Source: Brevibacillus massiliensis
GTDB taxonomy: Bacteria; Bacillota; Bacilli; Brevibacillales; Brevibacillaceae
NCBI RefSeq assembly: GCF_000311785.1
Contig: NZ_HE978535.1
Location: 1 to 64,000, forward strand
Reading direction: 5' to 3'
Length of the DNA: 64,000 nucleotides
In this document: piece after piece, positions 1-12,258 of the stretch
How positions within the stretch are numbered: position 1 is the stretch's first letter
Layout: each line of letters begins with the position of its first letter
Position numbers and translations under genes: made by a program
The notes under the pieces: model-generated
What the model saw: the letters and a program-made list of their open reading frames with translations, nothing else
Database searches by the model: none
Told to the model about the DNA's origin: nothing

Positions 1-32
1 AAAAAAACCGGTCAGGTAAGAGGGGGGAAAAA

Positions 33-1949
33 ATGTTTGCAAAGGACTTATCTATCGAAAAACTGCTATCCTTTTATCCGGATGAAGGCAAAATTTTCTT
101 TAAGGATTTTCGGACAATTCTAATTGGGACTGATGCCATGGGTACTTTACGGAAAGATCTCATTTCCGCATTGGGAATGGATCGGGCAAAAAGGTTTTTG
201 CTGCGATATGGTTGGCATTGCGGAACCAATGATGCCATCCATATTAAAGGAATGTTTTCCTCGGAGAATGACTCCGAGTGGCTTTTTGCAGGTCCTGTCA
301 CTCACTCGATTATCGGACATGTTCTTGCTAAACCGATCGAGCTTTGGGGCAATAGGGAAACAGGCGAGTTTTACGAGGAAGGAATCTGGTACAATTCATA
401 TGAAGCAGAACAGCATATTAAGCATTTCGGCTATCATCATGAGCCAGTATGCTCGACTTTAATTGGTTATGCGGGTGGGTATTGCAGCCAATATTTAGGC
501 CGGAAGGTGATCTTTAAAGAGGTGGAGTGCGTCGGTAAAGGTGACCCCCATTGTCGATATATAGGCAAACCCATTGAAGATTGGGAAACCGAAATCCAAA
601 GTGAATTGCTTTTCTATGAAGAGGAGAATTTGGCCATTGAATTGGACAGAGCTTATCGCCGGATTGAAAAACAGAAGGATGAATTAAAGAACGTCCTGAG
701 AATCAATGAAAGATTATCGAACGTCTTAATCCAAGGCGAGGGGTTAGCCACGATTGTTAAAGTGTTGGGCGAGAACCTCCGCACAACGGTTGTATTAGAA
801 GATAAAAATTTTAACTTGCTTGAATCATTTGGCCACTATATCCCTCACCCTTTCATGAAGTTTATTCAATTACCCGTCAGGAAACAAGCACAAAGGATCC
901 AGCGATTAATCCAAGAAAAGAGAACCGTTCACCTTTCTGTTCCCGACCATATCGGTTGGAAGCATGAACGTCTCATCTCTCCTATCTTATTGAAGAATGA
1001 AATATGCGGATTTCTCTCCTTGATCAAACAACAGGACACGTTTAATGAAATGGAAGTCATTTCGTTGGAACGAGCTTCTAGCATTTGTGCGGCCCAGTTC
1101 CTTAATGAGTGGACCACCATTGAAGCGGAACAGCGCATTAAAGGAGAATTGCTTGATGAGCTCATGATGGAAAATCCCAATATAGAAAATCTTTTCTACA
1201 GGATGAAATTAATGGGTTACGATCCGGACAAACCTCATTATGTCTTTGTCTTCAGCCTGCAACAGAACCATGATAGCCATATTCAACAATGGGAGTCCTA
1301 TTTGATGGAATTAAGTAAAAGGATAGCGGATGCCATCCACGATCAGTTGAAATTGTATGGTAGAAACTATCTTGTTTCCAGAAGACTGGATAAAATTAGT
1401 GTCCTTATTCCCGAAGATATATTGAACAAAACGAAGCTTGAATCTAAGGCCTTCGGAGAATTAATGGTGAATCTCATTAGCACCATCAATAAAGATTTCA
1501 GGATTATTCTTGGTATTAGTTCGCTTTGCAATGGGATAAGTACATTTCGAATGGGGTACGAAGAGGCTATCAAGGCTATTGAAATGGCACAAACAGGGAG
1601 ATTGAAATCAAATGTGATTTCCTTTGATGAACTGGGGTTTTTGGGCATTCTTCTTCATGCAAAAGACGCACAACATTTGGAGATTTTTGCCATGAGACTT
1701 CTTAAGGATTTAGTGAAGTACGATCAGGAAAAAGGAACCGAATTATTAAAAACGCTATATATTTTTTTAGAAAACCAGGGAAATATCCATAATACGTCCC
1801 AAGAAATGATGATTTCAATCGGTGGGCTTAGATATCGTCTCAAACGTATTCAGGAGATCAGCAAGATTGACCTGACAAGGGAAAGGGACTTATTCGATAA
1901 GCATTTAGCATTGAAAATACTTTTATTTTATGGATTATTCAAAATATAG
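33..1949 (+). CDS. XylR_N/V4R sensor fused to a PucR-type HTH regulator
   Basis: Probable transcriptional activator of the adjacent pyridine-degradation operon. Residues about 10-105 resemble the XylR/DmpR N-terminal aromatic-sensing domain. Residues about 120-185 form a V4R domain with the characteristic cysteines (PVCSTLIGYAGGYC, GKGDPHCRY). A coiled-coil linker follows at about 195-235. The C-terminal 60 residues match the PucR/CdaR helix-turn-helix (LYIFLENQGN, then LRYRLKRIQEIS). There is no sigma-54 AAA+ module, so it should act on a sigma-A-type promoter. ATG start 5 nt after AGGGGGG. A terminator follows it, so it is its own transcription unit. The effector is unknown; a hydroxypyridine is inferred from the neighbours. 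Confidence 0.8.
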   Translation: MFAKDLSIEKLLSFYPDEGKIFFKDFRTILIGTDAMGTLRKDLISALGMDRAKRFLLRYGWHCGTNDAIHIKGMFSSENDSEWLFAGPVTHSIIGHVLAKPIELWGNRETGEFYEEGIWYNSYEAEQHIKHFGYHHEPVCSTLIGYAGGYCSQYLGRKVIFKEVECVGKGDPHCRYIGKPIEDWETEIQSELLFYEEENLAIELDRAYRRIEKQKDELKNVLRINERLSNVLIQGEGLATIVKVLGENLRTTVVLEDKNFNLLESFGHYIPHPFMKFIQLPVRKQAQRIQRLIQEKRTVHLSVPDHIGWKHERLISPILLKNEICGFLSLIKQQDTFNEMEVISLERASSICAAQFLNEWTTIEAEQRIKGELLDELMMENPNIENLFYRMKLMGYDPDKPHYVFVFSLQQNHDSHIQQWESYLMELSKRIADAIHDQLKLYGRNYLVSRRLDKISVLIPEDILNKTKLESKAFGELMVNLISTINKDFRIILGISSLCNGISTFRMGYEEAIKAIEMAQTGRLKSNVISFDELGFLGILLHAKDAQHLEIFAMRLLKDLVKYDQEKGTELLKTLYIFLENQGNIHNTSQEMMISIGGLRYRLKRIQEISKIDLTRERDLFDKHLALKILLFYGLFKI

Positions 1950-1957
1950 ATAAAAAT

Positions 1958-1995
1958 AAGACTCCAATCTGTAAAAGGATAAGGAGTCTTTTTTT
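1958..1995 (+). terminator. Intrinsic terminator after the regulator
   Basis: Perfect 8-bp stem AAGACTCC (1958-1965) / GGAGTCTT (1983-1990) followed by a T run. It separates the regulator from the monooxygenase operon. Confidence 0.8.
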
Positions 1996-2013
1996 ATCGA
2001 ATTTGTATGATTC

Positions 2014-2040
2014 GTATAAAAAACTATTGTGTTTTTATAC
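2014..2040. promoter_or_regulatory. Inverted repeat, candidate operator of the pyridine operon
   Basis: Perfect 9-bp inverted repeat GTATAAAAA (2014-2022) / TTTTTATAC (2032-2040) in the AT-rich stretch between the regulator and the HpaB-type gene. A second small palindrome, AATTTCAGAAATT, lies at 2102-2114. Either could be a binding site for the upstream regulator. I could not fix -35/-10 boxes with confidence. Confidence 0.35.
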
Positions 2041-2167
2041 ATAACATTCAAACAAAAAACAACAAAACAGAAATAGTTTTCAATATATTAAATAAATAGA
2101 AATTTCAGAAATTAAATATTACTATTATCACCGTAGGAACCAAAAAACATTTCGTGGAGGAGATAAC

Positions 2168-3673
2168 GTGGCAAATACCAAGGTAACAGCAAAGTTTTTA
2201 AAAACAGGGGAAATGTTTAAGGAGAGCCTTCGAGATGGCCGAACCGTTTATTACAAAGGGGAGTTAATTCCCGATGTGACGGCCCATCCGGCTACCAAAG
2301 GCGGCATCGATATTATGGCTAAAATCTATGATGCCCAGCATAATCCTGAAACTCAAGATATGCTTACTTATTTTGATCCCAAGCTGGGAGAACGCGTTAG
2401 CAGAGCTTGGATGCTCCCGAGAACAAAAGAAGATTTAAAAAGCCGGCGAGAACTGACCGATTATATCGCATGGGAAACCTTTGGCGTATTTGGTCGTCCT
2501 TTTGACCTTGCACCTCTCGTTCCTGTGGGAATGGCAGCGCATCTCTCCAAATTCCGCAGCAAAAGACCCGAGTACGCAGAAAATGTTCTACACTATATTG
2601 AATATGCTCAGAAAAATAATTTGATGGGACCGGAAGTCTTGGTTGATCCTCAAAATGATCGTTCGAAAGCAGCTGCGGGTGGAGCCCGGATGTTCGATGA
2701 TGAATTGGGAACGAAAATCAAAGGAGGAGACTCCACACCCGCTTTGCTCCGGGTGGTGAAGGAGACAGAAGAAGGGATCTATATTAGTGGGGCAAAGGCT
2801 GTCGGCTCCATTGCTTCCCAAGGAAATGAAATGATTCTTTCCAACCTGATACGACCAGGGTTGTTACCGGAAGAATCGTTATGGCTAGCTGTTCCGATAA
2901 ATGCGCCAGGCATCCATATTGTATGTCGTGAAACAGTATCTGCAGATTCTTCCAGTTCCTATGACCATCCTGTAAAATCCCGTGGGGAAGAAATGGATTC
3001 CTTCCTGATTTTTGATAACGTTTTCGTGGAAAAATGGAGAATCTTCAATTACGGGGTTCCGGAACTGAATGAGTTGTACGGTGATGTAGTGCTCGGCGTA
3101 CATTGGAACGTTCTCTCTCGCTTGGCTTCCAAAGCGGAGATGTATGCGGGAGCGGCTCAGTTGATTGTCGATGCATTGGGAACAGGGAAAATTCCAGGCG
3201 TACGTTCCATCGTATCGAACGTCATCCATTATGCGCAAACCCTTCGCGCTTACGTTCTGGCCGCCGAAGAACTGGCCCAATTGACCGAGGATGATGTGAT
3301 GTGGCCCGATGTGAACATGCTTACGGCCGGGCGCCTCCATGGAATTGAGAAATACCCTGAAATTATTCATAATCTGCAGGAACTGTGTGGCCAAGGGTTG
3401 GTGATGAGGTTTTCTGAAAAGGATTATGAACATCCATTTATCGGAAGGAAATTAGAAGAGCTATTGTTCGGACGTGATCTGACTTCCAAGCAGAAGAACC
3501 TGTTAATGAACTTCATTTGGGATATTACAACGGATTCGCACGCCGGACGTGTTGCGCTGTTTGAAAACGTAAATGCGCTTCCAGCTCCATTATTGCGTGA
3601 ACGTTTATACCATGAATACGATAGGTCTTTTTTCATGCACAAAATTCGTAAATCCATTGGGCTTCCTCTATAA
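2168..3673 (+). CDS. HpaB-type FADH2-dependent aromatic monooxygenase (large component)
   Basis: Group D flavin monooxygenase of the 4-hydroxyphenylacetate 3-hydroxylase (HpaB) family, 501 aa, usual family length, with the acyl-CoA dehydrogenase-like fold expected. It uses reduced FAD from a partner reductase (encoded at 5680) to hydroxylate a phenol-like ring. GTG start chosen because GTGGAGGAG sits 5 nt upstream. All following genes of the cluster process 2,5-dihydroxypyridine, so the inferred role is hydroxylation of a hydroxypyridine (2-hydroxypyridine, or 6-hydroxynicotinate/6-hydroxypicolinate with later or concurrent decarboxylation) rather than 4-hydroxyphenylacetate. The family call is firm; the substrate is inference. 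Confidence 0.85.
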   Translation: MANTKVTAKFLKTGEMFKESLRDGRTVYYKGELIPDVTAHPATKGGIDIMAKIYDAQHNPETQDMLTYFDPKLGERVSRAWMLPRTKEDLKSRRELTDYIAWETFGVFGRPFDLAPLVPVGMAAHLSKFRSKRPEYAENVLHYIEYAQKNNLMGPEVLVDPQNDRSKAAAGGARMFDDELGTKIKGGDSTPALLRVVKETEEGIYISGAKAVGSIASQGNEMILSNLIRPGLLPEESLWLAVPINAPGIHIVCRETVSADSSSSYDHPVKSRGEEMDSFLIFDNVFVEKWRIFNYGVPELNELYGDVVLGVHWNVLSRLASKAEMYAGAAQLIVDALGTGKIPGVRSIVSNVIHYAQTLRAYVLAAEELAQLTEDDVMWPDVNMLTAGRLHGIEKYPEIIHNLQELCGQGLVMRFSEKDYEHPFIGRKLEELLFGRDLTSKQKNLLMNFIWDITTDSHAGRVALFENVNALPAPLLRERLYHEYDRSFFMHKIRKSIGLPL

Positions 3674-3696
3674 ACATCATTGTATACGGAGTTGAT

Positions 3697-4527
3697 ATGA
3701 AAGTGGATACGAACCAAAGTATGTTTAAAGATGTTTATATCAAGGGGATGGATGTTGATATCCATCTCCTGACTAAAGGGAATCAAAATGGGATACCGTT
3801 GATTTTTCTGCCGGGCATTACAAGCTATTGCAACTCCTTTCTGGATGTGTTGAAGCGAATCCCTGAGGAATATTACTGTTTGTCAGTGGATCTTCGAGGA
3901 AGAGGAAAATCTACTTGGCCCTCCCAAGGATATTTATTAAAAAATTACATGGATGACTTACTTTATGTTGTAAATTATGTGATTTCGAATCCGATCTCAC
4001 CATTTTTAATTGGACATTCCATGGGGGCTCGAATTGCTGCAGCTTTTGGAAGTCAATTCCCGAAATTACTATCGGGCATCGTGCTAGTTGACCCGCCGAT
4101 TCATGGACCGGGTCAAAGAGAAGAATATCCTACGCCGTTAGCAGCATTCCTTGAACAAAAAAAGGCGGTGGATGAAGGAGTGATTAAACGATTTAATTCC
4201 TATTTTCCGCATTTCAATGAAGCACAATTAATACAACGGGCAGAAGAGTATAGAAATGTTGCCAAACAAGCCATTATCGAATCGTATCATTCATTTAAAA
4301 AAGAACCATTGCACGTTTATATCAAATCGCTTTCGATTCCGTCCTTATTATTGCAGGCAGAACTGGGAGACACCATCAGGGATGAGGAAGCGGAACTGAT
4401 TAAAAGGATTAATCCCAATATGGGAACCTGCAAAGTAAAGGGTTCAGGCCATATGATTTACAAGGAAAAACCTGATGAATTTATTCATTACACATTAGAT
4501 TTTGTTAATGATACGCTCAACCTCTAG
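3697..4527 (+). CDS. nicD: N-formylmaleamate deformylase (alpha/beta hydrolase, NicD-like)
   Basis: Hydrolyses N-formylmaleamate to maleamate and formate, the step after ring cleavage of 2,5-dihydroxypyridine. The 276-aa alpha/beta hydrolase has nucleophile elbow GHSMGA with Ser108, Asp132 in LVDPPIHGPG and His252 in GSGHM. The spacings 108-132 and 108-252 equal those of the known Pseudomonas putida NicD triad (S101, D125, H245). The PPxxGPGxREEYP stretch after the Asp is also NicD-like. The gene starts 23 nt after the monooxygenase stop and lies directly before nicE, consistent with one operon. Other alpha/beta hydrolase roles are possible in isolation but not in this context. Confidence 0.85.
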   Translation: MKVDTNQSMFKDVYIKGMDVDIHLLTKGNQNGIPLIFLPGITSYCNSFLDVLKRIPEEYYCLSVDLRGRGKSTWPSQGYLLKNYMDDLLYVVNYVISNPISPFLIGHSMGARIAAAFGSQFPKLLSGIVLVDPPIHGPGQREEYPTPLAAFLEQKKAVDEGVIKRFNSYFPHFNEAQLIQRAEEYRNVAKQAIIESYHSFKKEPLHVYIKSLSIPSLLLQAELGDTIRDEEAELIKRINPNMGTCKVKGSGHMIYKEKPDEFIHYTLDFVNDTLNL

Positions 4528-4561
4528 TTCGTTGGATTTTAGGTATCAGGAGGGATCAAAT

Positions 4562-5326
4562 TTGAAGAAAAATTACCGAATCGGCCTTATTGTTCCAAGC
4601 TCAAATACAACCATGGAAACGGAAATTCCCACGATGCTGCGCTGGAGAGAGCAGGTGGATGAGGAAGTCTCGTTTACGTTTCATTCCAGTAGGATGCGGA
4701 TGAAGCACGTGACAAAAGAAGAACTGACGAAAATGGACCAAGAAAGTGACCGCTGTGCAGCAGAGCTATCAGATTCCCGCTGTGATGCACTTGCTTACGC
4801 CTGTTTAGTTGCGATCATGGCCCAAGGTCCAGGATATCATGTATCATCTGAGGAACGTTTATCGAAAATTGCACAGGAAAATGGGGGAGCAGCACCGGTT
4901 ATTAGCAGTGCGGGAGCACTAATAACCGGAATACAGGCAATTGGCGCAAGAAAAGCAGCATTGATTGCCCCCTATATGAAGCCTTTAACCCAAATGGTGA
5001 TTAACTATATCGAATCAGCAGGAATCGAAGTGACAGACTCAATCAGTTTAGAGGTAGCGGATAACCTGGAGGTAGGGAAGCTAGATCCTATGAATTTAAT
5101 TGAAATTGCCGATCAATTGGATCTTAGCAACACAGAAGCGATCGTTTTGTCCGCATGCGTACAAATGCCGTCACTTCCTGCAATTCAAGTTGTTGAAGAT
5201 CGTTTAGGACTGCCTGTCCTTTCAGCTGCTACGTCAACGGTGTTTAAATTATTAAGCAAATTAAACATAAAACCTTACGTTCCCAATGCGGGAAAGTTAT
5301 TATCAGGTGATGTTCATTCTTTCTAA
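4562..5326 (+). CDS. nicE: Maleate cis-trans isomerase (NicE-like)
   Basis: Asp/Glu racemase superfamily enzyme converting maleate to fumarate. The two catalytic cysteines are present as Cys81 (YACLVA) and Cys199 (LSACVQMPS). Their separation of 118 residues equals that of Cys76/Cys194 in the characterised Nocardia enzyme. VPSSNTTMETEIP and HSSRMRMK are maleate-isomerase signatures. I chose the TTG at 4562 (254 aa) because AGGAGGG lies 7 nt upstream. A reading from 4502 would overlap nicD and lacks a ribosome site. Final enzyme of the lower pathway, feeding the TCA cycle. Confidence 0.87.
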   Translation: MKKNYRIGLIVPSSNTTMETEIPTMLRWREQVDEEVSFTFHSSRMRMKHVTKEELTKMDQESDRCAAELSDSRCDALAYACLVAIMAQGPGYHVSSEERLSKIAQENGGAAPVISSAGALITGIQAIGARKAALIAPYMKPLTQMVINYIESAGIEVTDSISLEVADNLEVGKLDPMNLIEIADQLDLSNTEAIVLSACVQMPSLPAIQVVEDRLGLPVLSAATSTVFKLLSKLNIKPYVPNAGKLLSGDVHSF

Positions 5327-5342
5327 TGTGGAGGTGAGATCC

Positions 5343-5645
5343 CTGAATATTGAGGATATCCTTCGAATCAAAGCTATGATATCTGACGAATTGGACTATT
5401 TCTACAATAGAATACAAGAATGCGAACACTCAAAATGGATCTTATTATCCAAAAAAGAAAAAATTATGAAAGATCAAGTGGAAAATGGAATGAATGATTT
5501 CCATGAACAAGAGCTTAGAAATATTGCGGAGGAGCTCAATAGATTTAAAGCTGAGAAACATTTTTTAGTAAAAAAGATTAACAAATTAGAGGTAAAGAAT
5601 AAGCAGTTTTTATCTGATTTTTTGAAAAAATTAGATGTCGAATAG
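5343..5645 (+). CDS. Small coiled-coil protein of unknown function in the pyridine operon
   Basis: Not recognised. The frame is open from 5286 to 5645 (119 codons) and is highly charged (K/E-rich) with heptad-like spacing over most of its length, so an alpha-helical coiled coil is likely. No signal peptide, membrane segment or metal motif. The start is unclear. A strong GGAGGTG at 5330-5336 points to a CTG at 5343 (about 100 aa). An in-frame ATG at 5310 has only a weak site, and the ATG at 5286 lies inside nicE. It sits between nicE and the flavin reductase, so it belongs to the operon. Possible adaptor or reductase partner; no function is asserted. Confidence 0.6.
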   Translation: MNIEDILRIKAMISDELDYFYNRIQECEHSKWILLSKKEKIMKDQVENGMNDFHEQELRNIAEELNRFKAEKHFLVKKINKLEVKNKQFLSDFLKKLDVE

Positions 5646-5679
5646 CGACAACCTTGCAGCTGTGAAAGGAGGAGAATGA

Positions 5680-6168
5680 ATGCAAGAAGTAAAAGATAAA
5701 TTTCGCGAATCCATGAGTCGATTGGCTAGTGGAGTAACCGTTGTAATGACTGAAGTGGACGGCCGACCTTGGGGGCTAACCGTAAGTGCGTGTTGCTCGT
5801 TATCGATGGAACCGCCTCTTATTTTAGTAAGTCTAGCAACGAAGGCAGCAAGTACTCAAGCCATCATCAATTTTAACCGATTTAGCGTCAGTATCCTCGC
5901 GGAGGATCAAGTGGAAGTAGCAAAATTAGGGGCGAAACCAGGCGCTCCAAAGTTTTTTGAGGATTTTGTGGAAACTGATGATGGTTTTCATTACGACGTT
6001 AAAGATGCACTGGCAAATATTCACTGTAGGGTGGAACAGATAATCCCTGCAGGTGATCATACCATTTTTATAGGATATGTTGAAAACGTATTATTAGGTG
6101 AAGAAAAATCTCCATTACTTTATTTTGGTAGACAATTTGGAGTGTTTAACACGGGTTTAACGGGTTAA
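5680..6168 (+). CDS. Flavin reductase component (HpaC-like)
   Basis: 162-aa NAD(P)H:flavin oxidoreductase of the HpaC/RutF split-barrel family. It supplies reduced flavin to the HpaB-type oxygenase encoded 3.5 kb upstream in the same operon. Diagnostic features are RLASGVTVVM near the N terminus, SACCSLSMEPPLILVSL around residue 45, and C-terminal GDHTIFIGYVE followed by PLLYFGRQFGV. ATG start after AAAGGAGGAG. Whether it uses FMN or FAD cannot be read from the sequence. Confidence 0.88.
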   Translation: MQEVKDKFRESMSRLASGVTVVMTEVDGRPWGLTVSACCSLSMEPPLILVSLATKAASTQAIINFNRFSVSILAEDQVEVAKLGAKPGAPKFFEDFVETDDGFHYDVKDALANIHCRVEQIIPAGDHTIFIGYVENVLLGEEKSPLLYFGRQFGVFNTGLTG

Positions 6169-6231
6169 ACAAAAATAAATACGATCCAGGATTGGTGTAC
6201 CTGATCTTGTGATGGTTACGGGAGGGGTATC

Positions 6232-6879
6232 ATGGCAGCAATACTTAAGGATGATGAAGTTTTTTTTAAAGAAAGAGGATTTGGAAAACAATTAGGCTTC
6301 GGCAATAAGCCAGGCTTGATCGTAGTCGATTTGATTATTGGGTTTACCGATCCAACGATGCCTATGGGATCTGACCTTACCGAGCAAATTGAAAATACCA
6401 ATATTTTATTAGACCGTGTGCACCAAATGGGGTTCCCCGTATACTTTACAGCGATTTCTTATGATGATGATACATTTGCTGACTCAGGGATATGGTATAA
6501 GAAGATGGAGGGTTTAAAGACCCTGAAATCCGGTACCGAGGCGGTAAAGGTGGATCCAAGATTGAATAAACGGCCAGGGGATGGATTAATTATTAAAAAA
6601 TATGCCTCGGCATTCTTTGGGACGGATCTGATCGCTCGACTAAACACAAACCATGTGGATACCGTGGTTATCGTAGGATGTACAACCAGCGGATGCATTC
6701 GTTCCACCGTTGTTGATGCTTTGCAATATGGGTATAGGCCGATTGTTGTAGAAGATGCAGTAGGTGACCGTTCATTGGCATCACATGAACAGAGTCTTTT
6801 TGATATGCGCCAAAAATATGCAGAAATTCTTAAAACCACGGAAGTGGTAGATACGATATCCTCAATATATAGCAAATGA
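6232..6879 (+). CDS. nicF: Maleamate amidohydrolase (isochorismatase-like, NicF)
   Basis: Cysteine hydrolase converting maleamate to maleate plus ammonia. 215 aa. The isochorismatase-family triad is visible: Asp33 (VVDLIIGF), Lys123 (KKYASAFFGT) and Cys155 (GCTTSGCIRSTVVDA). The GCTTSGCxR signature is shared by N-carbamoylsarcosine amidase and NicF. The neighbouring nicD, nicE and nicX decide for NicF. ATG chosen for the GGGAGGGG site 6 nt upstream. Confidence 0.87.
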   Translation: MAAILKDDEVFFKERGFGKQLGFGNKPGLIVVDLIIGFTDPTMPMGSDLTEQIENTNILLDRVHQMGFPVYFTAISYDDDTFADSGIWYKKMEGLKTLKSGTEAVKVDPRLNKRPGDGLIIKKYASAFFGTDLIARLNTNHVDTVVIVGCTTSGCIRSTVVDALQYGYRPIVVEDAVGDRSLASHEQSLFDMRQKYAEILKTTEVVDTISSIYSK

Positions 6880-6908
6880 TTAGTTCGGAATCACGTGAAA
6901 CTTAAATA

Positions 6909-6971
6909 GAGCTTGTAAGCGGGGGTATTACAAGCTCATCGTTTCCTAAACATGGCCGTGATCTATCACGG
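6909..6971 (+). promoter_or_regulatory. Two stem-loops in front of the RibF-like gene
   Basis: A perfect 10-bp hairpin GAGCTTGTAA (6909-6918) / TTACAAGCTC (6928-6937) and a second hairpin CCGTGA-TCTA-TCACGG (6956-6971) lie in the 104-nt gap before the RibF-like gene. The second abuts the GGTGGGGGTG ribosome site. Neither has a T run, so mRNA stability or translational control is more likely than termination. No FMN-riboswitch consensus is visible here. Confidence 0.5.
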
Positions 6972-6983
6972 TGGGGGTGTGCC

Positions 6984-7829
6984 ATGGAATGTTACAAGGA
7001 CTTGTATGATGGAAAGTTGAATGGATTGGAATCAGGAACGTATATCGCCATTGGGACATTTGATGGTGTACACAAGGGACATCAAGAGCTCATAAGAAGA
7101 GTTGTAAAGGAAAGTAAAAACAATTATGGCAAGAGCTTAGTCATTACATTTGATCCCCTGCCAAAAGAATTTTTTAGTAGCGAACCTTCTATTCGTTTGA
7201 CTACTTCTTCTATAAGGGCGGAACGGATCGCGTCATTGGGCGTGGATATTTTACTTGAGTATACCTTTAATGATCAGTTTTCAAGAATTCGAGCAAATGA
7301 ATTTTTAACAAATATTCTAGTTCCATTGAACCCAAAGAAAATATTTATAGGTAGGGATTTTAAATTTGGCTATAAAGGATCAGGTGAACTTTCAGATTTG
7401 CTTCAGGCTGGGAAAAGGTATGGATTTGAGGTAGAGTTGTTGGATTTTGTGTTTTCCCGCAATCAACGTATATCCAGTACAAGAATACGCGAAGCAATTC
7501 GTGCTGGTGATATCGAGCTGGCTAATCAGCTGATGGGAAAGCGCCACGAGATTCATGGTTCCATGGTAAGAGCTATTCATGAATCAAAGCTGTTATTTTT
7601 ACCTTACAACAACGTCATAATCCCACCGAACGGAGAGTATATGGTTTCTCTTTATTATCGGGATAAGGAACATTTTACAACAGCGAGGATTATGGAAGGC
7701 AACCAACCTTTAGAAGTTAAATGGTCAAAATCTTTTCTCCATGATGATCTTCATTCAAATGTTGCGCTTTGCTTTTTGAATTCTATGTCTATGGTAGAAA
7801 GAGGTGTTTATATTGAATCATTTATTTGA
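6984..7829 (+). CDS. RibF-like FAD synthetase with degenerate riboflavin kinase half
   Basis: 281 aa. Residues 1-185 are an FMN adenylyltransferase domain with GTFDGVHKGH (residues 24-33) and SSTRIRE (164-170), the nucleotide-binding motifs of bacterial RibF. The C-terminal riboflavin-kinase half is shorter and lacks the GRxLGFPTAN signature. At the matching place it reads SKLLFLPYNN, and the following strand pattern is also diverged. Prediction: it makes FAD from FMN but cannot phosphorylate riboflavin. Its place between nicF and nicX suggests dedicated FAD supply for the flavin monooxygenase. A housekeeping ribF should exist elsewhere in the genome. Confidence 0.78.
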   Translation: MECYKDLYDGKLNGLESGTYIAIGTFDGVHKGHQELIRRVVKESKNNYGKSLVITFDPLPKEFFSSEPSIRLTTSSIRAERIASLGVDILLEYTFNDQFSRIRANEFLTNILVPLNPKKIFIGRDFKFGYKGSGELSDLLQAGKRYGFEVELLDFVFSRNQRISSTRIREAIRAGDIELANQLMGKRHEIHGSMVRAIHESKLLFLPYNNVIIPPNGEYMVSLYYRDKEHFTTARIMEGNQPLEVKWSKSFLHDDLHSNVALCFLNSMSMVERGVYIESFI

Positions 7830-8853
7830 CGAAATGGTAGATTTATTTAGGGCCGAACTTCAATTATGCAACTTAAAACCTACAGAAACAATGGCTGTGT
7901 TAACCTCTGGAGAGACCCGGGCCGATTATGCCAAAGCATTTTTAAAGGCTGCTTCGCAAATTGGCGCAAACGCTTACGAACTGAAACTCCCGCCAGCGAA
8001 CAGAGGAATGGCAGGCTCATTCGGCATCACTCCCATAACAGACAATCGGGTTGCGGTAGAATGTTTGAAGAAGGCGGATCTGGTCATTGATTTAGTTCTC
8101 CTTCTATTTTCAAAAGAACAGTTGGAACTTCAAAACGAAGGCGTAAGAATATTAATGGTCGTCGAACCTTTTGATGTGATCAAAAGAATGTTTCCCAAAG
8201 AAAGTGATAAGCAAAGGGTGCTTTATGCCACAGAGCTCTTAAAAAACGCGAAGGAACTAAGATTCACCAATCAGGCGGGTACCGATGTTCAATACCAGTT
8301 GGGGCAATATCCAGTCCTTGTCGAATATGGTTTTGCCGACCAGCCGGGAAAATGGGATCACTTGCCAAGCTGTTTTGCTGCCACTTCGGGCAATGATGGT
8401 GGAGTGGAGGGGATTGTCGTGATGGACAAAGGAGACATTTTCTTCCCTTTTAACCGGTATATACAGGATCCCGTAAGTTTAACCATCAAAGATGGCTTTG
8501 TCACAAAGATCGAAGGAGGATTTGACGCCATGCTGATGAGAGAGTATATCGAAAGCTTTCATGACCCTCGAGCATACGCAATATCTCACATCGGCTGGGG
8601 ACTTAACGACCGTGCCCAATGGCATAGTTTGGCATTGGACAATCAGGTATTCGGCATGGATGGACGCGCGTTCTATGGAAATGTCCTATTCTCCTTGGGT
8701 CCCAATTCTGAATTGGGCGGAACGAACGATACTCCTTGCCATCTTGATTTGCCGATGAAAAATTGTACCTTATACCTTGACGGTAAATTAATTGTGAAAG
8801 ACGGAGATATTGTGATCGATGAGATGAAACCTGTTACACCAGAGCAAGTTTAG
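7813..8853 (+). CDS. nicX: 2,5-dihydroxypyridine 5,6-dioxygenase (NicX-like)
   Basis: Ring-cleaving non-haem Fe(II) dioxygenase producing N-formylmaleamate from 2,5-dihydroxypyridine. 346 aa from the TTG at 7813, chosen because GAAAGAGGTG lies 6 nt upstream. A GTG at 7804 in frame is less well placed. The metal ligands expected from P. putida NicX (H265, H318, D320) correspond to His259 (ISHIGWGLND), His310 and Asp312 (DTPCHLDLP). It overlaps the end of the RibF-like gene by 17 nt, indicating translational coupling. Last gene of the operon. Confidence 0.88.
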   Translation: MNHLFDEMVDLFRAELQLCNLKPTETMAVLTSGETRADYAKAFLKAASQIGANAYELKLPPANRGMAGSFGITPITDNRVAVECLKKADLVIDLVLLLFSKEQLELQNEGVRILMVVEPFDVIKRMFPKESDKQRVLYATELLKNAKELRFTNQAGTDVQYQLGQYPVLVEYGFADQPGKWDHLPSCFAATSGNDGGVEGIVVMDKGDIFFPFNRYIQDPVSLTIKDGFVTKIEGGFDAMLMREYIESFHDPRAYAISHIGWGLNDRAQWHSLALDNQVFGMDGRAFYGNVLFSLGPNSELGGTNDTPCHLDLPMKNCTLYLDGKLIVKDGDIVIDEMKPVTPEQV

Positions 8854-9130
8854 GATTTGTTGAATGATCATTTTTTCTTAGGTTTTACGAGGTTTTATAG
8901 GCTCTTAGGTCGAATTGAAATGCGAGGAAAATGCGAATTTCTCGCAAAGATCAGAAGCACGGATAGGCCGGGAGGAGTCAGCACTTCGTTAGTCAATGAT
9001 TAAATCATGAAAAATGGCGAGAAAAACAATTACAATTTTCACCTGTTTTGGATTTTTTACAGTACGCAAATAAGAAGTCCTCCTGAAAACCTTATTTTCT
9101 GACTTGTATAACAAAGAGATTCGACAAGAA
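8854..9130. other. Intergenic, no gene seen
   Basis: AT-rich stretch after nicX without a convincing reading frame. It contains a short inverted repeat TGCGAG/CTCGCA around 8920-8946 with no T run. No transposon ends or RNA gene recognised. Confidence 0.5.
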
Positions 9131-9160
9131 AGACAAAAGCCTCCCCATGTTGGGAGGCAA
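9131..9160 (-). terminator. Intrinsic terminator of the small minus-strand gene
   Basis: Stem GCCTCCC/GGGAGGC with a 6-nt loop. On the minus strand it is followed by TTTTG and a T-rich stretch, immediately downstream of the stop of the small gene at 9172. Confidence 0.6.
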
Positions 9161-9171
9161 AATTTCCAATC

Positions 9172-9345
9172 CTAATAGGGTGAGTTTTCGTATTTTTGCC
9201 TTGCTTCTTCAATAGTTTTGTAATCGAACGTCCTGTAGATCGACCTTACCAACTCTTGAATCTGTTTCTGAGAATACCCCAATTCCTCAGCCCCGATTAT
9301 CGCATAGCCTAGACAGGCGTTGTTACTCCATTCCTGAGGTTCCAC
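9172..9345 (-). pseudogene. Small protein remnant, probably frameshifted near its N terminus
   Basis: 57-codon frame beginning at a GTG (9345) with good codon texture: EPQEWSNNACLGYAIIGAEE near the start and a C-terminal RTFDYKTIEEA helix. A terminator follows directly. Upstream, in a different frame, HLRKLIELDM reads like the missing N terminus, so a single frameshift is likely. There is no ribosome site at the GTG. It resembles short helical hypothetical proteins of Bacillales, but the family is not identified. End coordinates could be off by one base. Confidence 0.4.
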
Positions 9346-9629
9346 ATGTCAAGTTCTATGAGCTTCCTCAGATGCTGTGACTTATTACCGTTTTCATTGG
9401 CATGGTTGTTGCTTTCATAAAGAGACATAGCGAAGTAAGAATCATGTCATGGAGGAATGTTCTTTGAAAAAAACGTGATTTGTCTTTCTTTCTACTCCTG
9501 TACCAGCACCTAATGGATCGAGCAAGCCGATGGACCCAGCAATTCCTTTGTGGGCCGACTGGATTTCCGCTGGCGGTAATCATATGAACGATCCGGTTAT
9601 GCTCTCTGTTGACAAGACAGCCACAGTGC

Positions 9630-10377
9630 AGAAACGGCAGCAGTTGCAGGCCGGGCAATAAACCCGATTCGAACCACCATACCGGTTCCTGCTGTTTCAG
9701 GGACGGCCCTGTTCATGCCATCCTTGGTAGAAGCGGCCGCCGGTCTCGGTGTCAAATTTGTTTCGGTGTTTCCGAATAACAAGAAACTTGGAAAAAAGAC
9801 CATATACGGGGTCATGGTCCTGTCAGATGTGGAGAACATCGGAACCGCTTGCCCTGTTGGAGGCGTCCTATTTAACTGCACTTCGAACGGGTGCTGCTAC
9901 CGGTCTCGCAACCAAACACCTGGCGCGCTCCGACGCAAAAGTGCTCGGGGTGATCGGCACTGGAGTGCAATCCAGAGGGATCATTTCCGCTATCCGTGAG
10001 GTGAGGTCAATCGAATTTTGCGCCGAGCACATCGGCTCAGGGGTACATGTGAACGCCGTTGGTTCATTTCGTCCCGACATGCAGGAACTGCCGGGAGAAT
10101 TATTTGTCAGACGTCCGAAAGTGGTGGTCGAATCGGTTGAGGCAGCGCTAGAGGAAACGGGCGATTTGCTCATCCCTATGGAACAGGGACTTTTTAGTGA
10201 ATCATTGCTGTACGCAGAGCTGGGCGATATTGTGGCAGGCAAAAAAAGGGCCGCGAAAATCGGGAAGAAGTTACGATTTTTAAGTCGGTCGGGTTGGCTG
10301 CAATGGATGTTGTAGTTGGTAAAGCTCTTTACGACCGTGCTGTGGCACTCAAGCTTGGGCAGCAAGTACCACTTTAA
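9630..10377 (+). pseudogene. Ornithine cyclodeaminase / mu-crystallin family pseudogene
   Basis: Fragments of an NAD(P)-dependent ornithine cyclodeaminase/pyrroline-2-carboxylate reductase-type protein are spread over different frames. First comes ALFMPSLVEAAAGLGVKFVS with a preceding AINPIRTTIPVP. Then LTALRTGAATGLATKHLAR and KVLGVIGTGVQSRG (NAD-binding loop) appear in a second frame. VHVNAVGSFRPDMQELP follows, and the closing VTIFKSVGLAAMDVVVGKAL returns to a third frame. At least two frameshifts and an internal deletion of roughly 60 codons after SIE are needed. A relative of this family would fit the (hydroxy)proline/opine genes next door, so this may be a dead member of that cluster. Confidence 0.8.
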
Positions 10378-10448
10378 CGGGGAAGTTTCAGACAAAACCC
10401 CTTGAGACAATTGTAGTCCAAGGGGTTTCCTTCATATGGAGATGAAAT

Positions 10449-11657
10449 CTAAGCACCAGTGTTTTGTTGTGCATACATGCTGCTGATCGTTCTCCGTCCT
10501 TTCTCAATGTAGGGGTCGAATTGGATAACAGCGTGTTCACGGACAACTTCTACCTTTTTCATCGCTGTTTGCAGCAGTTTTTTCTCGGGAAGCTTTCCGA
10601 ACTCGTCGGCAATCGAGAGCCCGGCAACCGTCCCTTGAGCTGCAGCCACTTTGGCACTTTCAATGCCTGTAATGTTTCCGGCCACGTAAAGTCCTGCGAC
10701 AGGTGTCTGCATGCGTTCATTGTGCAACGGTATATGGCCACCAAGCTCCGGGAGGTAAGCAAACGGGCAGCCTGCCACCGCTGCAAGCTCAACAAGCGGA
10801 GAAAGTCCGCCAGCAATGCAAACGAAGTCGGCTGGAATTACTTTTTCCGTTCCCAAGACCGGTTCTCCTTTGGTGTTGACCTTCACGATTTTGACGCCTT
10901 CCACCTGCTTGTCACCAAAAATCTCCAGAGCGGCTACTTTTACCTGTATGGGGATTCCCCACATCCGAATGCCGCTGCTGGGCAGGAACGAAAGCGCCAG
11001 CTTTAGCATGGCTTCCGATTTGATCAGTTTGCTGCCAAGTCTGATGAAGGTGGATGGGGCGAGGTGGGCCAAACGCAACATGGACTGCATCACTTTCTCC
11101 GGGTTTCCCGAATCCTTGGTTAAAAGATTTCGGGCAGGAAGCACTATTCTGTCGACATGAATTCCTGCCAATTGCAGTTCGCGCGCGATTGCCAACGATA
11201 ACACATTAACACCTATGACAATGCCGCGGTTCCCCACTTTTACCCGCTGAACGTTGGTCATGACTTGAGCTGCTCCAATCGACATGACGCCTGGAAGAGT
11301 CCAATCAGGCAGAGGGATGGTAGTCTCAGCTGCTCCGGTAGCCAGGAGCAGCTTGGGCACCTCAATGATTCCACGGGTAGTCGAAACACGCCAGCCCGTT
11401 TCCGTTTTTGCCACGTCGTACACAGAGACTCCGCAGTCGATATGGACGCCAAGGTTTTTCGCCTGTTCAACCAGACGTTTGGCTTCAGCCATGCCGTTCC
11501 ACCAACTGCCGTCCGGCTCTTCATGCAACTGTCCGAGCAGTCGGCCGCCGGGGAGAGTAAATTCGTCGAGAATGTTTACCTGTAGACCATGCTGTGCACA
11601 GGCTATACCTGCTGAAAGGCCGGCCGGACCTGCGCCTACGATCAGGACATCCGTCAT
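10449..11657 (-). CDS. FAD-dependent oxidoreductase subunit of a (hydroxy)proline/opine-type dehydrogenase
   Basis: 402-aa NAD(P)/FAD-binding protein of the HcnB/OoxA/LhpF-like group. It starts with the dinucleotide-binding VLIVGAGPAGLSAG, has a second Rossmann motif near residue 145 (GNRGIVIGVNVLSLAIARE), and the C-terminal FAD motif VAGLYVAGNITGIE. The ATG overlaps the stop of the [2Fe-2S] gene (ATGA), so the two are coupled. In known complexes this subunit works with a ferredoxin-like subunit and a DAO-type subunit, here encoded divergently at 14186. Substrate unproven: D- or L-hydroxyproline, proline or an opine. Confidence 0.8.
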   Translation of the reverse strand: MTDVLIVGAGPAGLSAGIACAQHGLQVNILDEFTLPGGRLLGQLHEEPDGSWWNGMAEAKRLVEQAKNLGVHIDCGVSVYDVAKTETGWRVSTTRGIIEVPKLLLATGAAETTIPLPDWTLPGVMSIGAAQVMTNVQRVKVGNRGIVIGVNVLSLAIARELQLAGIHVDRIVLPARNLLTKDSGNPEKVMQSMLRLAHLAPSTFIRLGSKLIKSEAMLKLALSFLPSSGIRMWGIPIQVKVAALEIFGDKQVEGVKIVKVNTKGEPVLGTEKVIPADFVCIAGGLSPLVELAAVAGCPFAYLPELGGHIPLHNERMQTPVAGLYVAGNITGIESAKVAAAQGTVAGLSIADEFGKLPEKKLLQTAMKKVEVVREHAVIQFDPYIEKGRRTISSMYAQQNTGA

Positions 11658-11992
11658 CGATGCTCTCCTCCTTTCTTCAGAGGGGAAGGAAGTTGGACGC
11701 TTGATTCAACATTCATGCCTTCTTCAACAAGTGTGAGGCATGCGCGTTTTCCTTGAACACCGTTTACTGTCACACGGCATTCAAAGCAGTGTCCGATGTT
11801 GCAGTAAATGCCGCGAGGAGTTCCTTTTTCTTCGTGCACGCGCAACGTACGTACCCCATTGGCAAGCAACGCGGCGGCAATCGTTTCAGATTCGTATGCC
11901 ATATAAGTGTTGCCGTCAAAGCGAAAGGAGAGTGATTTGCGATTCTGCATGGCTCCTAGAATAGGGTGTTGTTCAATTCTCCCAAATGTCAT
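11654..11992 (-). CDS. [2Fe-2S] ferredoxin-like subunit (HcnA/OoxA-gamma type)
   Basis: 112-aa plant-type [2Fe-2S] protein with the cluster ligands in YCNIGHCFECRV and a fourth Cys in KRACLT. This is the small subunit found with FAD-dependent opine, hydroxyproline and HcnABC-type dehydrogenases, passing electrons between flavins. Packed between the BFD-like gene (overlap of 4 nt) and the FAD subunit in the same minus-strand operon. Confidence 0.85.
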   Translation of the reverse strand: MTFGRIEQHPILGAMQNRKSLSFRFDGNTYMAYESETIAAALLANGVRTLRVHEEKGTPRGIYCNIGHCFECRVTVNGVQGKRACLTLVEEGMNVESSVQLPSPLKKGGEHR

Positions 11993-12258
11993 TTTTTCCC
12001 TCCAAGAAGATCAAAGGTAACGGGGCGAACGGGAGGCTGATAACTGAGCGGTACGGCATCCCCAGGCGCGATTCCGGTTACCTCTTTGACTACCATGTCA
12101 ATTAGATTGCGGCATGTCCGGCCTCCGCAGTATCCCATCCCGGCTCTGGTTCTGAGTTTTAGTTCCCGAGACGAACACTGATAGGAATTTGCTGTCTCTT
12201 GCAACTCCTGCAAGGTAACTTCTTCACAACGGCAGACTACGATTTGATTTGGCTCCAT
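11989..12258 (-). CDS. BFD-like [2Fe-2S] domain protein
   Basis: About 89-aa protein with the bacterioferritin-associated-ferredoxin-like motif: CRCEEV near the N terminus and GYCGGRTC near residue 60. In related dehydrogenases this domain is fused to or encoded beside the FAD subunit. Start set at the ATG at 12258 because AGGAGG lies 5-6 nt upstream. The longer frame reaching 12330 would run over the promoter. First gene of the sigma-54-type minus-strand operon. Confidence 0.82.
   Translation of the reverse strand: MEPNQIVVCRCEEVTLQELQETANSYQCSSRELKLRTRAGMGYCGGRTCRNLIDMVVKEVTGIAPGDAVPLSYQPPVRPVTFDLLGGKK

Follow-up and report, generated by a model that had tools for sequence, protein, structure and literature searches.

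From which compound, and by which enzyme, would 2,5-dihydroxypyridine (2,5-DHP) be formed for an operon that joins the genes for its degradation to an HpaB/HpaC-type hydroxylase? This question is raised by positions 2168 to 8853 of a 64,000-nucleotide stretch of Brevibacillus massiliensis DNA (the window; assembly GCF_000311785.1, contig NZ_HE978535.1), which begins at base 1 of its contig (C1) in a genome of 5.06 Mb. The operon encodes, in this order, HpaB, NicD, NicE, an orphan open reading frame (ORF), HpaC, NicF, a flavin adenine dinucleotide (FAD) synthetase, and NicX (Table 1); the genes were checked by ORF listing, Pfam, NCBIfam, and comparison with solved structures. HpaB carries the HpaB_N and HpaB domains and is linked to a flavin reductase, HpaC, with a Flavin_Reduct domain, as expected of a two-component FADH2-dependent monooxygenase, and NicX, NicD, NicF, and NicE match characterized homologues. 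The complete 2,5-DHP-to-fumarate gene set and the two-component entry enzyme proposed in an initial annotation of this DNA are thereby borne out. With a probability of about 0.7, the operon would make 2,5-DHP from a hydroxypyridine and degrade it, and the best reading of its HpaB is as a putative new clade of two-component hydroxypyridine hydroxylases forming 2,5-DHP. The operon is real, mobile, and coherent, and it is a new form of the maleamate pathway, not a system of a different kind.

The lower pathway resembles that of the Pseudomonas putida nic cluster (NicC-NicX-NicD-NicF-NicE), with which the operon shares the NicX, NicD, NicF, and NicE homologues, their active sites, and the four lower steps. 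It differs from that cluster in having HpaB/HpaC instead of the single-component NicC, of which none was found within positions 1 to 8853 of the window, and in its dedicated FAD synthetase, its different regulator, and its lack of a nicotinate dehydrogenase. All four Fe ligands of NicX are kept (H262, S297, H313, and D315, corresponding to P. putida His265, Ser302, His318, and Asp320), as are the substrate contacts E174 (Glu177), H186 (His189), and the Leu104 equivalent. Glu177 touches N1 and O1 of 2,5-DHP (PMC7910607). The catalytic residues of the maleamate pathway are also present: the NicD triad (S108-D132-H252) has spacings of 24 and 120, the same as in 4l0c, the catalytic Cys pair of NicE lies 118 residues apart, as in 4fq7, and NicF has D33, K122, and C155. 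The claim that every catalytic residue is conserved thus holds for the NicX metal site and for NicD, NicE, and NicF, including the identical NicD and NicE spacings, but not for the second shell of NicX, where Phe102 stands at the position of P. putida His105. The same Phe occurs in a second NicX of this genome and in all relatives examined, and in P. putida NicX the H105A variant is dead, whereas H105F and H105M are active (PMC7910607).

The top library names for HpaB are 4-hydroxyphenylacetate (4-HPA) hydroxylase, which would fit an ordinary 4-HPA or phenol hydroxylase placed by chance ahead of nic genes. However, HpaB scores far under the equivalog cutoffs (248.4 bits against 480.2 for TIGR02309 and 121.5 bits against 885.2 for TIGR02310). 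The 4-HPA site conserved in FAD-dependent HpaB is Arg100-Tyr104-His142 (PMC10537072), and in the window HpaB Arg100 is kept as R110, while L114 replaces Tyr104 and E156 replaces His142. This Leu/Glu replacement is invariant in 24 of 24 NicX-linked HpaBs. In the phylogenetic tree, which has long branches on some outer rows and from which E. coli-type HpaB was left out, the NicX-linked HpaBs and a few more distant plasmid relatives form a clade separate (support, 100/99) from Thermus thermophilus HpaB, TftD, NpcA, and a CphC-type enzyme. Because of this separate clade and the replacement of Tyr104 and His142, HpaB is not filed as a 4-HPA hydroxylase; by these sequence marks it is placed outside both the 4-HPA hydroxylases and the chloro- and nitrophenol monooxygenases, and the firm position within the 4-HPA hydroxylases that would have told against the initial annotation is not observed. 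HpaB accompanies NicX at all related loci in Bacilli and a NicX homologue at the closest alphaproteobacterial loci, and on all these grounds an ordinary 4-HPA or phenol hydroxylase placed there by chance is highly unlikely. With the T. thermophilus 4-HPA 3-hydroxylase (2yyg/2yyk), the window enzyme shares the fold family, Arg100, and a separate flavin reductase, and its flavin chemistry is very likely the same; it differs in the Tyr104-to-Leu, His142-to-Glu, and Ser197-to-Leu changes, the separate clade, and the pyridine-pathway context. TftD, NpcA, and CphC-type enzymes have the superfamily and FADH2 dependence in common with it, whereas the plasmid NpcA and CphC-type relatives are only about 31 to 33% identical and belong to another clade (100/99) and another gene context. 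Among the pattern matches on viral contigs, none encoded a relative of the window HpaB.

Two plasmids of Peribacillus frigoritolerans and nine other Bacilli genomes encode an HpaB of 86 to 89% identity; the nine comprise two Aneurinibacillus and species of Bacillus and Neobacillus, Neobacillus niacini among them. Of 399 Bacilli genomes sampled, 3 had such HpaB copies, the window's genome counted. Since the same gene set recurs in these nine genomes and two plasmids, the operon is not a chance assembly. The usual layout of the related clusters is MerR-isochorismatase, HpaB1, NicE, HpaC, NicF, FAD synthetase, HpaB2, NicD, and NicX; an NCS1 permease (Transp_cyt_pur), which several of them encode, often comes next. 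Aneurinibacillus terranovensis has a shorter set of MerR, HpaB, NicD, NicX, and NCS1. HpaC is 71 to 80% identical at the other Bacilli loci having it, and HpaB is the only recognizable entry enzyme of the related modules. The window operon differs from these clusters in its single HpaB, other regulator, and lack of a permease, and a search of its own genome found no NCS1 permease. The G+C content of the operon is 42%, against 53.7% for the rest of the window, and that of the related clusters is 37 to 43%. The sporadic presence, the 86 to 89% identical HpaBs in other families of Bacilli, the plasmid copies, and the G+C shift fit acquisition of the operon by transfer, in agreement with the AT-rich block noted in the initial annotation.

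Several features of these related clusters are recorded here. Seven of them (L056-L058, L060, L061, L063, and L066) hold two closely similar HpaB copies each, and in Aneurinibacillus tyrosinisolvens and V5-8f the copies pair within the genome in the tree, which suggests recent duplication or gene conversion. A MerR-type helix-turn-helix joined to a domain of the isochorismatase (maleamate amidohydrolase-like) type occurs at L054:15251-16072, at L039:18843-19703 (contig C6 of the window's genome), and at the same position at most of L056-L066; its catalytic Cys is replaced by Ser and its Lys is lost, and it is probably a pseudo-enzyme that senses an intermediate of the pathway. In N. niacini, an OYE-type oxidoreductase and ETF subunits, possibly an N-demethylation system, lie just upstream of the cluster (L058:2672-8055). 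On a Peribacillus plasmid, a CoA-transferase/dehydratase/HMG-CoA lyase-like cluster (L065:8272-14181) includes a second homologue of NicE (71%).

Contig C6 of the genome carries another nic cluster, of the conventional type (L039:8718-19703), whose proteins are 81% (NicX), 67% (NicE), 65% (NicF), and 54% (NicD) identical to those of the operon. It also encodes a branched-chain type ABC transporter, the MerR-isochorismatase protein, and a single-component, NicC-like FAD monooxygenase, the matches of which include 6-hydroxynicotinate 3-monooxygenase (8uiq, 1.2e-65). The same cluster is also found in another genome of this family (G008). Because of this conventional cluster with its NicC-like enzyme, the HpaB operon is predicted to be a separate, second route into 2,5-DHP; the idea that HpaB serves the contig C6 cluster was rejected, since a NicC-like gene is already present there. 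With a NicC-type cluster already in the genome, a second 2,5-DHP-forming route would be most useful for a different substrate.

The same cluster bears on whether HpaB/HpaC is a second 6-hydroxynicotinate 3-monooxygenase that performs a decarboxylative para-hydroxylation, which would make the operon a redundant nicotinate branch. The product has to be 2,5-DHP, the superfamily members TftD and 4-nitrophenol 4-monooxygenase act para to a hydroxyl, and the other genomes with HpaB clusters lack a close NicC (best matches, 31 to 36%). Besides the NicC-like gene within a full nic cluster of the window's genome, however, this proposal faces the facts that no nicotinate dehydrogenase genes were recognized in the HpaB clusters (a Variovorax cluster has xanthine dehydrogenase-type genes) and that NCS1 permeases, a family that carries neutral N-heterocycles, are better suited to a neutral ring than to a carboxylate. 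We regard it as quite improbable. Taken more broadly, a carboxylated hydroxypyridine such as 5-hydroxypicolinate or 6-hydroxynicotinate, undergoing decarboxylative ipso-hydroxylation, is an unlikely substrate.

The nearest HpaB relatives outside Bacilli are 46 to 50% identical and come from Alphaproteobacteria, where they adjoin NicX homologues, a flavin reductase, amidases, and in some cases an FAD synthetase. Near HpaB, Rhizobium sp. ACO-34A and R. daejeonense encode a pyridoxamine-pyruvate transaminase (641.8 bits; curated cutoff, 600), and homology indicates the same arrangement for Ochrobactrum quorumnocens. These vitamin B6-linked clusters also have a GMC oxidase, named pyridoxine 4-oxidase in the ACO-34A record, and a lactonase-like gene that is below the 4-pyridoxolactonase cutoff. 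The Rhizobium and Ochrobactrum clusters (L067, L068, and L084) are plasmid-borne and combine HpaB, a NicX homologue, two amidases, and B6 genes, which makes them a candidate third route of vitamin B6 degradation. As in the B6 degradation pathway I of Mesorhizobium loti, which has a known late ring-opening oxygenase, the genes stand beside a pyridoxamine-pyruvate transaminase, whereas HpaB, the NicX-like protein, and the amidases replace that oxygenase; this is not a feature of the window. Glu177, kept in the Bacilli NicX, is Gln in the alphaproteobacterial relatives (both Rhizobium clusters), and because of this change their NicX homologues may cleave a substituted ring.

In the B6 vitamers, which are 3-hydroxypyridines, ring C6 is free and lies para to the hydroxyl. 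Because of the B6 link of the clade and because the Bacilli lower pathway demands unsubstituted 2,5-DHP, the favored substrate is 3-hydroxypyridine attacked at ring C6, to which we give somewhat less than even odds. The conversion of 3-hydroxypyridine to 2,5-DHP is known in Agrobacterium sp. DW-1 (PMC6525221). Four points weigh against this choice: ring C6 of 3-hydroxypyridine is electron-poor, so that electrophilic flavin hydroxylation is chemically less favorable at this position than at C5 of 2-hydroxypyridine; the connection to B6 rests on the 46 to 50% identical relatives with Gln for Glu177, whose ring may differ; the operon itself has no recognizable transporter; and the contig start truncates the view upstream of the regulator. 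An entry gene missing past the contig end is unlikely, as the related clusters start at the MerR regulator and have no common gene further upstream. A serious rival is 2-hydroxypyridine, which would be hydroxylated at its electron-rich C5, para to the 2-hydroxyl, by the chemically easiest flavin-hydroperoxide route to 2,5-DHP. According to the discussion in PMC6525221, known pyridine beta-hydroxylases require an alpha-hydroxyl para to the site, and the NCS1 permeases of the related clusters carry pyrimidine-like rings. Nevertheless, outside Bacilli the one informative pathway context found for the clade is vitamin B6, a 3-hydroxypyridine, and we consider 2-hydroxypyridine rather unlikely; any other substrate is very unlikely. 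As a tentative extension, it is possible that HpaB belongs to a new clade of two-component flavin hydroxylases that spans phyla, is specific for rings of the 3-hydroxypyridine type, and is paired with NicX-type ring-opening dioxygenases; this pairing would serve 3-hydroxypyridine catabolism in Bacilli and the undescribed third B6 route on the Rhizobium and Ochrobactrum plasmids.

From the gene content and order, catalytic residues, HpaB clade, and recurrence seen in the sequence, we infer the substrate and all reactions of the pathway as follows. HpaC would reduce FAD with NAD(P)H, and HpaB would use the FADH2 and O2 to form a C4a-hydroperoxyflavin, held by the conserved Arg110, and hydroxylate a monohydroxypyridine para to its hydroxyl to give 2,5-DHP. 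NicX would convert 2,5-DHP to N-formylmaleamate, from which NicD would remove formate and NicF ammonia, and NicE would isomerize the resulting maleate to fumarate. The FAD synthetase, in which a Pfam scan found no riboflavin kinase domain, is proposed as a dedicated supply that would maintain FAD; its homologues are 47 to 51% identical in most related Bacilli clusters and 28 to 29% identical in three alphaproteobacterial clusters.

The tight gene spacing and the strong terminator before hpaB point to a single transcription unit: the genes are intact, lie on the same strand, and overlap or are within about 100 bases of their neighbors. The start of NicE is most likely the TTG that follows AGGAGG rather than position 4502, and the orphan ORF probably begins beyond the stop codon of NicE. 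A tblastn comparison with the related Bacilli loci found a homologue of this ORF (45%) only in A. tyrosinisolvens, at the same place.

Table 1. Features of the regulator and operon region of the window
Feature	Coordinates	Strand	Evidence
Regulator (XylR_N + V4R / GGDEF_2 + HTH_30)	33..1949	+	Pfam; MobR-like N-terminal half
Intrinsic terminator, regulator/operon boundary	1958..1996	+	Fold -13.5 kcal/mol, z -3.3, T run after
HpaB-type oxygenase component, GTG start	2168..3673	+	HpaB_N 2.9e-67, HpaB 2.4e-34 (Pfam)
NicD-type N-formylmaleamate deformylase, alpha/beta hydrolase	3697..4527	+	4l0c E=4.4e-25
NicE-type maleate cis-trans isomerase	4562..5326	+	4fq7 E=4.6e-85
Small orphan ORF, 119 aa as listed	5286..5645	+	No Pfam/NCBIfam match
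HpaC-type flavin reductase	5680..6168	+	PF01613 (Flavin_Reduct) 6e-36
NicF-type maleamate amidohydrolase, isochorismatase fold	6232..6879	+	3ot4 2.7e-42; 4l07 5.4e-42
FAD synthetase, RibF-like, without riboflavin kinase domain	6984..7829	+	FAD_syn 1.5e-44
NicX-type 2,5-dihydroxypyridine 5,6-dioxygenase	7804..8853	+	P. putida NicX 7cn3 E=2.8e-96

The regulator, in which an XylR_N and V4R sensor half is fused to a PucR-type output half, is likely an aromatic-sensing activator of the operon. It is not present in the flanks of the other Bacilli HpaB-NicX loci (L056-L066). Since the terminator separates it from hpaB, an operon promoter is needed within positions 2000 to 2140. An Rfam search of positions 1 to 12000 found no element. 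Relatives of the regulator occur in another genome (G033) at 41% (L091) and 30% (L092), the latter locus also having another HpaB-family gene. Downstream of the operon, pieces of an ornithine cyclodeaminase in shifted frames (window positions 9715 to 10315) are probably a pseudogene.

The operon would share with Agrobacterium sp. DW-1 the route from 3-hydroxypyridine through 2,5-DHP and N-formylmaleamate to maleate/fumarate; the passages of that study on the route assign the first step to no gene, and alpha-hydroxylation is usually performed by molybdenum enzymes (PMC6525221). The open literature searched held nothing matching on HpaB with NicX or dihydroxypyridine, on an HpaB-based B6 route, or on pyridine pathways in Bacillus, and the HpaB-NicX pairing is apparently undescribed there. 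The second nic cluster, the recurrence of the HpaB module, the FAD synthetase, the His105-to-Phe change in NicX, and the B6 link of the clade go beyond the initial annotation. The operon would add a flavin-based, molybdenum-free entry into 2,5-DHP metabolism and reveals that Bacilli have a mobile module for pyridine degradation, and Leu/Glu in place of Tyr104/His142 beside nicX is a sequence mark by which database names of 4-hydroxyphenylacetate 3-hydroxylase may be corrected.

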